64,000 bases of DNA from Sacculina carcini (lineage: Eukaryota > Arthropoda > Thecostraca > Sacculinidae), in contig OU696588.1 in NCBI GenBank assembly GCA_916048095.2, forward strand, positions 2,225,001 through 2,289,000, in the 5' to 3' direction. This document shows, piece by piece, positions 40,201 to 46,200 of this stretch (its first letter is position 1; each line of letters starts with the position of its first letter). Both the position numbers and the translations under genes were made by a program. Under the pieces are notes generated by a model. The model was not told where the DNA came from. It ran no database searches and saw nothing but the letters and a program-made list of their open reading frames with translations.

Positions 40201-43200
40201 TGTACGCAAAGTAGATGTGTCAATTACTATAGCCTGCAATACCCCGTGAAACCTCCGTCCGATGCATGCTACTTACTTTGAAAGACTGCGGAGAACGATT
40301 GAATGCGTTGAAGTGATGTGTCTCGGAGTCAACGGCCGATTTCAGAGTGACGTCACCGGTAGAGGGATCAGCACGAATAACAGTGGCGGCAGTCTGGATC
40401 GGCGCAGCACAAAAATCCAAAACGATAATAATTAATCGATAATTCACAACAAAACACATAGGAAAAACTACATAACGCCAAACCGTTGAACTTCAACGTT
40501 AAGATATTACGGGTATTAGATAGTACTACATAACGCCAAACCATTAAATTTCGACGTTAATATAATACTTGTAACATCGAAAAAACAGAAGAAAAGCGTG
40601 GTCAAAAAGTGTAGCAAAGCCCCGCTGGTTGTGAAATACGACAGCTAGTGTAAATCCAGATCTAGTCGGGTTGATACCTTTCAGTGCGATTTAACACTAC
40701 GCAAACAAAACATTTGCTTTTTGCACCACTGACACCAACACCGATAATACTGTAGCATGTAAATCAATTTTGGGTCACAACACTTGAGCACACACACACA
40801 CACACACACAGAACTTCAAGAGAACGTTTGCCGTGGCACACGACAGCCGTGTGATTACGACTGGCGATACTTGACAATGACAGCTTGTCATGCACGACAC
40901 GGTGGTGACCTTACCCTGCGCCCTCCCATCCGACGATTGGCACGACATTCGAGAGGGGTGTGTGATCGTTGTGTCCACTAAGCCCGCACACTTACCGATC
41001 GCATTCCGGGCGGAGTTCGAGATTGTCCTGCGGTCGGCTTTGGCGCCACGGGTGGACCGACCTTCGACGATTGCGAGTTCGACTTTGGAGGCGTGCCCGG
41101 CACGGAGGTGTTGAATGTGTGCTGCTTCGGTTCGGCTGTATTGACGCAAAATTAATACCGGTTGTGAGTGTTGCACGAATCAAATGACTGACAGTTCGCA
41201 CTTATTGTATTCCAATAAGTTAAACTCAGCGATATTAGCTGGATTTTGTCAAAGCGTTTTCAGGTTGTTTGTGAATAGAAATCAATTTTCAATACTCTGT
41301 TGAATATTTTTTTTCTAAATAAACCCCAAAATAGATTATTCCACGGTGTACATCCTGAAATAGCGTATTGTGAAGTAACGACACACAAGCGTCTGACAAA
41401 TGACGAAACATGACTAACTGCATAACTACAAGAGCCACACCAAAATCTCAAGGCCACCGAAATTTACATGTACAAATTTTTCCGTTGAGCGATAACAGCA
41501 GACTCACAGGGTTGTCTGATCATATTAGCGCTACGTGTGTGCGTAGAGGGAGGAGTTGCAGCATTGTTCTGCGCTCCAGCTTTCTGGACGGCGGCTGGTC
41601 TGTGAGGTTCGGGTGAGACAACACCAGGAGGAGCATCAGGAACGGCGGCATCGGCGGCTTCCTGTTCGCCGGTCGACTCGAACGCCTCGGGGCATTCGTC
41701 CAATTGCTGCACCATTCGCAGAACGTCCGACATATTGCCGTCGAACTTCTTTTCGTTCTTGCGAAAATCCACACTGTCAAAGTGCGGTCAAGCCTCTTAG
41801 TTATATACGTCTAAGTCAGCTACGTCAGTGCTAGAGTTGTTAGTGATACAGACACATCAGACTTAGGAACAGTGTACACAGAGGGGCCTCGACTTACGAA
41901 CGGTTTCGATGAACACGATTTATCGAGTTACGAGCGCTGATTTGTCAATACATCTCTCACAAAAGTTACAGGCAAGGTTTCAAATTGGGATCAAAATTCT
42001 CGTTTAGATCTTCATATTCCAGCGGAACATGTGATGATTCATGACAAATTTTCACAAAAAAATTTCGCCTCGCACACCCTCTGGAGACATGATATAACTT
42101 GAAAAAAGTTTGGACTTTTTTGGTAATGAAGTTATAATTCAATGGGAAGAGTCAACCCAGATTAGGAGCTGTTATCGAACAAACGTAGTTCGAGGCCCAT
42201 CGTATATGTCCTTACACAGTTGCGAAAAACGTTATGGTCCACAACAACATGCACGTACTAACAAGAATACCAATACGAACTAGCTAGATGAGTTATTGAA
42301 AGCATATTCAATTGCTCTATTCAACAGCCTGTATTCCAAGCTATGTCTGCAAATTCACAATGTTCTTGATTCGTGAAATTTGAATCTTCTTGATTTCTCC
42401 GCTATTAAAAATATGAAATTTAATAAAATATCAAAGTAATATATGCAAAAATAAATTATCACGCATAATAGCATAGAAGAGGGGTTCCCAACCGGTTTCG
42501 ATTCGCGGCCTCCAGGACAGATCCGGAGGGCTCCATGACCCTCCAGTAAAATATAACAGAAGTTAGAAAAACACCTCTATACTGAATTTTTATCACATTC
42601 AATACTTCAATACCATCGTTATTGAATTTAATAATAAATACAAAGAAAAAAAGATAAGATATTAATGACATGAATTTTTTAGCAAATTTTGACGGATGCA
42701 AATTTTTTCACGCGGCTGTCACGACCTCCTCAAGTGGCCTCGCGACCCTCCTAGGGTGTCGCGACCCACTGGTTGGGAAACTCTGGCATAGGGTATATTA
42801 CGCAATTTTCATGAATCTCTAAGGAAAATTTGATTTATGCATGAATTAGAGCGTATAAATATAGTCAAACACTAGCATTTCAACGACGTTCTCTCGCTTG
42901 GAAGCAAACAGATGTGTATCTCTTGCTCCAGTATTAACAAAGAGCAGGTTTATTAAGCAGAAAATTACAATATTCAGAAGAGATTTGTGACGAATTCAAG
43001 CGTTCAAAGTAGATAACAAATCTTGGCAAAATCACTCAGTGACTGTTTTGGCTATCCATGAGTCTTGAGCACTAATAAAATCTGCAATCCATTATTTCCG
43101 TGCATGTCCAATTCTTCCATAATACCTAAGAACTTCCTGCCGATAATAAACCGAATTATCCTTTGGATAAAGTTACTCTGGGAGCAGGCTTCAATCAGCC

Positions 43201-46200
43201 TGAATGTGCTGAAACTACACGTTCACTTTCTTGTATGTTATCTATGGTCTTGTGCCAAATATACTTCCCCAACTCAGTGTTCTTAGCGACACAGAACGCA
43301 CGGCACGTCTCAAGTCACTGACACTATTTGCCAAACATTCCAGACATTTCCTGTTGTGCGTTCTGATTTTTGGCTCGAACGGCGAAATACACAAACATGC
43401 ATTGGCATACAAAATATGAATATATTTTTGAATATCTAGACACTAGATCGTCGGGATACGGTGGCACACATGTGTACGTGTGTATTGTTTTGTGTGCGTG
43501 TATATGTGTGTGTGTGTGTGTGGGTGTGTTTGTGTTAATTTGTGTGTGGGTGTATGTGAGTGTGTAGAAATGAATCAGTGTTCATTGACCTGCAAGGCAC
43601 TGAGCACTGTTTGGGAAGTGTGTGCCCAGATGTGACTTGATTTTGCACGCGACGCTGTTGGCAACACGCCAGATACCTTGTGTGTCCTCTCAGCGTCTCC
43701 GCTCATCCCCTACGCTCCGTTCCTCTTTCGTCAGAGCGTGTATTTCCATCTGCGTTCGTTCGGTGTGCGCTAGCGGCTAGCCAGCCAACCCTCGCGCCAA
43801 CAATTCGGACAAATGGCGAAAGAGACTCAACAACTGTCAGCGATCAGAGGTGACCTCTCACTCGGTGACCACCTTCCTCTTTCTCTAACCCTCGTTGCTT
43901 CATCACGCACATTGGATCTAAATGGTGGATGCAAACGTTGCTGAACGAGCTATGAGGTCTGGTTATTTCTTCATGTAGACTGAGCCAAAGACAAACGCCT
44001 TTCCGATCGGTTGGAAGTGGACATTGTAAATTGCTACATTATTTCACCAAACTCAAATCGACGCATCATTTTTCAACACTGTACACAAGTTGTATCCATA
44101 TTCTCCCCCAAGATTTACAACGTTTCAACAAAGCATTAAACCAACCAGATCTTGAACGGAAGCTCAAAGCGGAGTTAGTCCTGCGGATAGATCCTCACAA
44201 AATAGTGAGATAAGTCGCAAATTAAAAAAAACTGTAGAAGACTGTAGAAGAAGAAAACATTGAGCACGGACGTTTGAAAATTGGAACATCAATTCTTCTT
44301 CGTGCTCAGACAAAAGTCCGAATACTAAGAAAGGCTACTTGAAATATGATGATAATTGGTGTTTATGGGCGCACCGGCCTGTCAGACCATATGACGCCCC
44401 CGGCTACTTGAAATAAGCCACACACCTTGACAGATAGCAAACAACAACCAGGTTCTACCAAGACTATGCTACAAATTCTACTTGCTAGAACTACATCGAC
44501 AACTACCAATCTACCACTACGGACAGTTCTAGACCTGAGGTCGTGGCAGAATTGACGCAACTGTTGAGTGGAGGCGTCTGTTGGGAGCCATTCGTGTCAG
44601 AGTTCAGCATTCGCAGCACATCAGAGTGTCCGGGTTTCCATGGCACCGGCTCATAACGCTTAAAGTTCACCCTTCATTTGCGACGCACATACACAAAAAC
44701 AAACGTTACCAAAACGTATCGACATAAATCAAACCCATCCACATAGCGGACTTTCAAATAGAGGGGACTTTCGTGGTCCCCGTGAAATGCTTCTGCTAGA
44801 TTTCACACTATCTATCTTTTAATAAAATGTTATTTCGCGTCTAACAAGTGGATAACATACTTGTATCACAGCGTGTGCGTGTAGTCACTACATATATATC
44901 CACGGAGCATAGACCTACTCACGTATTTATGGGATAAAGGTTAAAGGCCTCAAGTGACAGCTGCTACACGGGCAAAGGCCGAAGCTTATGAACACATAGG
45001 TGTGTCCGATGCAGCTTGCTACCACCGCAGAACCGACCCTCTGCACGCTATGGCGCCACATGGACGGAAGACGTATTATAGAAGGCCAACTCCCCATAAT
45101 GCATGGCCCAATACATGACTGATATCTGGGATCATTTACTGCTGGGTGGACAGGGGTTGTTGGATTATAGAATTCGCCTGAATAAATTTTCCTACGCCGA
45201 GTTTCAAACCACGGACAAACTCCCGCTTGTGCGGCTGGTGTGCTACCACTACAGCACGGACAATTTCGACATGATCGGACAATTAAATGCTGGTCTTGGC
45301 AAAGGCACTCACCCCATTGCGCCCCCTGATAAAACTTCGGCCTGGGCAGATAGCGTCTCGGCGATTTTCTCCTCGGAATAGAGTGACAGCGGAGAATTGA
45401 ACTGGCTGTGAACCATCGACTTGACAGATGAATCAGCATTGTCCACAATCTTTGTTCAGACACAGACACACACACACACACACACACACACACACACACA
45501 CACACACACACACACACACACACACACACACACACACATACGACAGACACCCACACACACAGAAAAATATATTTCGCGGATGGAAATTAAACGATGGAAA
45601 TGACTAGTTATTATAATTATTCTTATTATTATTGATTACAGGCAATTCCAGTAGCATGGGAGAATATTGAACGCACCCTGCGGTGGCCCCATGTACCGGA
45701 AGCGCCCAACAGATGGAGAGAGCAAAATAGTTCGAAAAGTAGGGAACTCTAGATAATAAGACAGTTCGAAAAGAAAATAATATATGAATATCAATAAACA
45801 ATCTAGTTGAAGGAGGCTATGCAATAGCGACACGAGCTTCACTCAAATCCTCCACAGAAGCATATGCATAAGAAGACTATTCAGCAAACGTACGCGTACA
45901 CGGGATTATCATGACGACAGACTGATCTGAGCCAACATACTAACATTTACACGTTGGCTGACTTTTTTAGTTTCATTTATATATCCCTTCATTTTATCTT
46001 GCTCATTATCATTATACGTTTATTGTTGGTTTTGCGTTACTATATAATCTTAATCAATCTGTTGCACGATTTTGTATATATATACTTATATTTAGGCCTC
46101 TAATTTGATCTTTCTGACTAAAACCTTTACTCTTCGAATTCTCTCTCCGCGTCTTTGGGCGTGTCCGGTACATGCAGCCACTGCATGGTGGTCACAATGC

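Follow-up and report, generated by a model that had tools for sequence, protein, structure and literature searches.

A candidate pair of mutually exclusive exons after the ZM motif in a Zasp52/Enigma-type gene of Sacculina carcini

In the 64,000-nucleotide (nt) stretch of the Sacculina carcini genome analyzed here (contig OU696588.1, positions 2,225,001 to 2,289,000; hereafter the window), a minus-strand gene of the Zasp52/Enigma type raises the question whether two exons that can both follow its ZM exon are alternatives, of which each productive messenger RNA (mRNA) carries exactly one. A sequence-only reading of the window had claimed that the two, here called exon A and exon B, are copies of each other and are forced by phase to be mutually exclusive, and had suggested a switch between them by tissue or stage. 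The genome (264 Mb in 43 contigs) has 94 Chitin_bind_4 matches, in keeping with an arthropod, and none to the 7tm_6 odorant receptors, a weak hint at a non-insect, as control genomes gave no match either. The host gene was assigned by its domain order, that is PDZ, ZM (DUF4749) and C-terminal LIM pieces. Two manually joined N-terminal exon pieces match PF00595 (PDZ) with 47.1 bits against a cut-off of 23.2, the ZM motif is present, and the genome's own PF15936 match falls at the site of the ZM exon. At the C-terminal end, two pieces lie above the LIM cut-off of 22.9 (28.6 and 39.7 bits), while a third LIM-like piece at 31207 was recognized by its pattern only. A separate LIM1 after the ZM motif, as in fly Zasp52, did not show up when cysteine patterns were scanned, an approach that may overlook split exons.

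Rechecking the sequence returned the exon coordinates and phases as they had been described, with both exons lying behind the ZM exon (Table 1). A and B are neighbouring internal exons with compatible GT-AG splice sites and equal phases, and no further exon was recognized between them; their status as a phase-compatible pair rests on the weak donor of exon A. Exons A, B and C each have a length of 2 mod 3. Based on these boundaries, 14 exon combinations were translated downstream of the ZM exon (Z). Only four of them stayed open (Z-A-C-D-E, Z-B-C-D-E, Z-A-C-E and Z-B-C-E), and each of the four contains exactly one of A and B together with C. The remaining ten met a stop, including A and B with C, A and B without C, and the forms with neither exon: joint inclusion leads to a stop inside B, and joint skipping to a stop in D or E. 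Since both exons in series, or none of them, run into a stop, exactly one of A and B is permitted per open mRNA if the boundaries are right. The exclusivity by phase that had been claimed thus holds for these boundaries, and A and B can be regarded as a candidate mutually exclusive pair and a plausible isoform switch like those of flies and vertebrates.

Are the two exons related in sequence? Their encoded peptides share V-F---E and SDVLRM, both within the first ~22 residues. When open AG sites were aligned from the junction onwards to the first 20 residues of B (2402 sites, both strands), exon A scored 29 and the next best site 20, with 104 for B itself. Among the 65 open sites between the ZM exon and exon C, A reached 30 and the next best site 21. 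Further evidence comes from the DUF4749 profile, to which the ZM part alone scores 38.4 bits, whereas it scores 48.5 bits when joined to A and 52.0 bits when joined to B; with either exon, the match reaches position 68 of 93 in the profile. Shuffled tails placed behind the ZM part (five shuffles of A and five of the first 45 residues of B) stayed at 37.0-40.0 bits in all ten cases. As a control, the ZM part was fused to exon C in a frame that would not arise from real skipping; it reached 40.9 bits, slightly above the shuffles and below ZM plus A. Because the profile gain exceeds both the shuffled tails and this control, both exons are read as carrying the next part of DUF4749, and an accidental open frame is an unlikely explanation for exon A. 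The related starting block proposed for the two exons is therefore borne out by the junction-anchored score and by the DUF4749 gain, and their homology appears supported by the profile: the encoded sequences are homologous in the first ~22 residues only, and both extend DUF4749. Without the ZM part, neither the A nor the B peptide gave a Pfam match. The canonical fly Zasp52 sequence after the ZM motif presumably resembles exon B (KNEK... S-VL).

Within the window we found no third copy of the exon, the next anchored score being the 20 given above. When the genome was searched, exon A (at E up to 0.001) and exon B (at E up to 10) each returned the query itself only; these searches also missed the other member of the pair, so that a diverged third copy would have escaped them too. 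Short peptide strings searched for in the literature gave no match.

Table 1. Features of the exon pair and of related loci. Positions are those of the window unless a contig is named; a slash within a motif marks the exon boundary.
Feature	Position	Strand	Remarks
ZM-motif part of the exon preceding the pair	45313..45446	-	donor GGG/GTGAGT; exit phase 2, last G split across the junction; 5' exon boundary not fixed
Exon A	44535..44671	-	137 nt; phase 2 in, 1 out; weak acceptor aaatgaag/G, weak donor CAG/GTCTAG
Exon B	41508..41773	-	266 nt; phase 2 in, 1 out; donor CCT/GTGAGT; coding by codon usage
Exon C	40996..41135	-	140 nt; phase 1 to 0; common next exon after A or B
Exon D	40277..40393	-	117 nt; phase 0 to 0; holds the first stop if A and B are both skipped
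Exon E	39490..40116	-	627 nt; phase 0 to 0
Rival form of exon A	44426..44671	-	extension to strong donor AAG/GTGTGT at 44426; in-frame TAG 44505-44503
UAG-rich stretch directly 3' of the exon A donor	44435..44534	-	10 TAG per 100 nt, mostly GTAG
Further ZM-type exons	G000:C23:719796-719879 (L003 1489-1584); G000:C22:3237930-3238013 (L004 1489-1584)		

Based on the phases, the frames and the homology to DUF4749, we consider it plausible, with a probability of roughly 0.55, that A and B form a switch in which exactly one of them enters each productive mRNA. Several observations weigh against this. Past the first ~22 residues, nothing clear is shared by A and B, which limits their similarity. Without anchoring at the junction, this similarity is equalled or exceeded by unrelated frames: with B as query, 3/2128 sites reach a score of 30, namely B itself, A (30) and one unrelated site (33); with A as query, unrelated sites at 29 come right behind B (30); and in an any-frame search against B, two unrelated open reading frames reach 33. 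The exons are also not of similar length, as the gap of 43 residues (45 in A, 88 in B) exceeds the default of the predictor WebScipio, by which candidate exons differ by at most 20 residues (PMC3228551). An internal phase-1 donor of exon B at 41625 (CTG/GTGTTG, score -1.6) would give a form of 149 nt, near the length of exon A.

The splice sites of exon A are a further point on the negative side. Its acceptor has a pyrimidine tract of 0.47, compared to 0.59-0.65 for exons B to E. On donor scores taken from an approximate frequency table, its donor reaches -2.7, a value matched by 35% of the GT sites on the strand, compared to a range of 2.4 to 5.6 for the donors of Z and of exons B to E. Upstream of the in-frame stop, only two GT donors in phase 1 would make A longer than 30 nt. 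Of these, 44535 scores higher than the other (-8.4), but the out-of-phase GTs at 44515 (-0.4) and 44507 (-1.6) outscore it. From the ZM donor to exon C, four donors score at least 2; the strongest of them is 44426 (5.4), whose use would bring the in-frame TAG inside exon A. Codon usage was scored after training on exons C, D and E and part of the 38029-36692 frame (boundaries unchecked), with a null set of frames from the first 33 kb on both strands from which low-complexity frames were dropped. The first 45 codons of exon B are marked as coding (0/329 null segments as high), but exon A is not distinctive, as 20% of the 329 null segments score as high; codon usage thus failed as proof that A is coding, although the true frame of A is the best of its three. 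Finally, the switch is deduced from the DNA sequence of one species.

The weak 44535 donor, the strong 44426 donor with its in-frame TAG and the undistinctive codon usage lead to the chief rival, in which exon A ends the protein. Splicing from 44426, or read-through to a polyadenylation site, would terminate translation at the TAG. The outcome would be either a short protein with PDZ and ZM but no LIM domains, or reduced expression if A acts as a poison exon. In line with this, the frame of A remains open beyond 44535 for ten more codons, an AATAAA is present at 42954, and a short LIM-less protein of this kind, Zasp52-PP, exists in flies and is functional (PMC6910826, PMC7332060); it is described as an isoform that blocks ZM-LIM oligomerisation (PMC6910826). 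However, the 45-codon segment ends in a CAG/GT in just the phase that joins exon C (a match expected by chance in about 1/3 of cases), neither AATAAA nor ATTAAA occurs within 1.5 kb after the stop, and the 246-nt form places its stop ~77 nt before the junction and would be open to decay. We rate a terminating exon A as rather unlikely, but as the strongest competitor of the switch.

A lower probability is given to exon A being a decayed copy, i.e. a true duplicate of the post-ZM exon whose splicing was lost. While its weak acceptor and donor and its ordinary codon usage would suit such a relic, its 45 codons are still open and its DUF4749 match nearly equals that of B, which makes decay improbable. 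A further reading takes A and B as independent cassettes that can be used together because an alternative splice downstream restores the frame; it could draw on the fact that A and B without C return to phase 0 by length (137 + 266 nt). In that case, however, B is read in the wrong frame with an internal stop, and Z-A-B-D-E and Z-A-B-E both stop in B; after the frame test, this explanation is disfavoured and seems very improbable. We are just as sceptical that exon A is an accidental open frame that merely happens to resemble B, for which one could cite the unrelated site that exceeds A in the unanchored comparison. Anchored at the junction, exon A stands alone, and none of the ten shuffles attains its DUF4749 score.

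If the switch is real, A and B would be old, diverged duplicates of an exon encoding the part of the DUF4749 (ZM) region that follows the ZM segment, within a Z-disc scaffold of the Zasp52/Enigma type. mRNAs containing both exons, or skipping both, would shift the frame, hit a stop and be lost to nonsense-mediated decay. Exon B is probably the default because it has the better splice sites; regulation probably acts on exon A, whose sites are weak and whose downstream intron is rich in UAG.

How could exclusivity be achieved? An incompatibility of U2- and U12-type introns was not supported, as the three introns contain no [AG]TATCCTT and their donors are GTGAGT, GTCTAG and GTGAGT. Steric hindrance was likewise rejected, since the A-B intron of 2761 nt is not too short for joint splicing. 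Regarding base pairing between introns, comparable to the docking and selector sequences of Dscam, 15 pairs of 100-nt intron ends yielded best z values of -2.9 and -2.3 and a longest perfect match of 11 nt, on a single sequence; none of these 15 tests gave a convincing docking pair. With U12 introns, a steric block and docking pairs all unsupported, exclusivity by frame and decay, together with regulation by proteins, is what remains. Judged by a human survey, in which 377/629 clusters (60%) have exon lengths not divisible by three (PMC5740500), frame-bound exon pairs would be common; a possible steric block was assigned there to 9% and U2/U12 incompatibility to 0.79% of the clusters. Joining reads were seen in only 83/377 of them, and other tight regulation was inferred for most clusters (PMC5740500), so an incompatible frame will rarely suffice by itself as the mechanism.

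A candidate for such regulation lies directly behind exon A. The UAG-rich stretch listed in Table 1 is the minus-strand maximum of the window, where the mean is 1.08 TAG per 100 nt and three other clusters reach 7 to 9. The 200 nt 3' of A contain 9 GTAG (2.7 expected; 0/300 first-order shuffles as high) and 12 TAG (6.8 expected; 7/300 shuffles as high); these numbers are post hoc, as the cluster was spotted first and tested later. A milder GTAG excess is also found in the ZM-A intron (7 versus 3.3 expected, 15/300 shuffles), so part of the signal also lies upstream of A, and the cluster could instead belong to a longer exon or a 3' untranslated region. UAG-type sites are also bound by hnRNP-A proteins. 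Furthermore, UAG is the Musashi core motif, and in vertebrate photoreceptors clusters directly downstream of exons accompany their inclusion, which was promoted by the cluster in one tested exon (PMC4991804). The position just downstream of a presumably regulated exon is thus shared with these Musashi-regulated exons, but they belong to the vertebrate retina. A Musashi- or hnRNP-A-like protein would fit as the RNA-binding factor that switches A on. Scanning 11 consensus patterns in seven stretches (77 tests) revealed no excess of Rbfox, Bruno or STAR motifs around the exons. The Muscleblind motif YGCY was found six times in the B-C intron (3.1 expected, 25/300 shuffles) and four times in the 200 nt after B (1.6 expected, 22/300 shuffles), neither of which is significant over 77 tests. 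More specifically, one could propose an arthropod ZASP switch that leaves the ZM motif unchanged, exchanges only the post-ZM part of DUF4749 and places A under UAG-mediated control of a Musashi- or hnRNP-A-like protein; as a whole, this proposal is improbable.

Vertebrate LDB3, also called ZASP or Cypher, encodes the ZM motif within the exons that it swaps. Comparing our pair to this system, exons 4 and 6 of LDB3 concern the same gene family and likewise the region between PDZ and the LIM domains; they are mutually exclusive, and, like a wrong joint of A and B in the frame test, the joining of exons 3 and 6 shifts the frame, its product being probably reduced by decay (PMC9822979). The ZM motif is reported for both LDB3 forms (PMC8002584), whereas in our gene the exchange would spare the ZM exon and affect only the segment behind it, and LDB3 exon 6, unlike A or B, comes as a cassette of exons 5-6-7 (PMC9822979). 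Exon 4 forms are described to prevail in heart and exon 6 forms in skeletal muscle (PMC8002584), the exon 4 form also predominating in brain and spinal cord (PMC9822979).

In Drosophila, a gene of the same type, Zasp52, is named among those with mutually exclusive exons derived from splicing graphs of expressed sequence tags (PMC3303723); the statement there does not specify the exons, and hence does not equate them with A and B. Splicing of Zasp52 is reported to be affected by Muscleblind (PMC3315501) as well as by Bruno1 and Rbfox1 (PMC8742874). A Musashi- or hnRNP-A-like regulator of exon A would differ from these three proteins described for Zasp genes. The muscle-type-specific exon 14/15 switch of Zasp52, which involves Bruno1 and Rbfox1, occurs in the same type of gene (PMC8742874, PMC11081514), but it is an alternative 3' splice site and not an exon pair.

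Several other elements were observed in the window and the genome. The intron before exon A carries an interspersed repeat of ~330 bp (45260-44932), and six further stretches of the window match it at 80-85% identity. In the A-B intron, a stretch at 42780-42484 has inverted ends (TTCCCAACC ... GGTTGGGAA) and resembles a small hAT-type element. A long open frame at 63999-61447 with reverse-transcriptase- and integrase-like sequence presumably represents a BEL/Pao-type retrotransposon. Outside the window, two further ZM-type exons (QVVHHQF[N/D]TPIDLYSPGNAAQSLENQTGIST) score 28.4 and 24.7 bits, the first one lying above the cut-off with its neighbours. Their 9.5-kb surroundings align with each other in three blocks of 311-688 bases at 84-91%, and the two loci look like a second, duplicated Zasp-type gene, although Zasp66 and Zasp67 of flies have been called insect-specific (PMC6910826).

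Regarding the function of the proposed switch, the swap would retain the PDZ, ZM and LIM domains and alter the segment or linker right after the ZM motif. This motif had been taken as alpha-actinin-binding in the sequence-only reading, which needs correction: in fly Zasp52, the extended PDZ domain alone is reported to suffice for optimal alpha-actinin binding, whereas optimal actin binding (PMC7332060) and ZM-LIM oligomerisation (PMC6910826) depend on the ZM region. Because the ZM region serves these actin and LIM contacts, the likely effect of the swap would be on the ZM-dependent binding of actin or LIM domains, and not on the binding of alpha-actinin itself.

The Zasp gene family is already known for isoform switching of this sort, and what is new is the candidate pair in this gene. 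If true, an exon switch at the post-ZM place would exist outside vertebrates, with a pair that is cut differently from that of LDB3. The post-ZM segment belongs to a conserved domain that is still listed as being of unknown function (DUF4749). Two natural versions of it in one gene would permit a clean test of its role in actin binding and in ZM-LIM oligomerisation, the latter of which is said to set myofibril diameter (PMC6910826).

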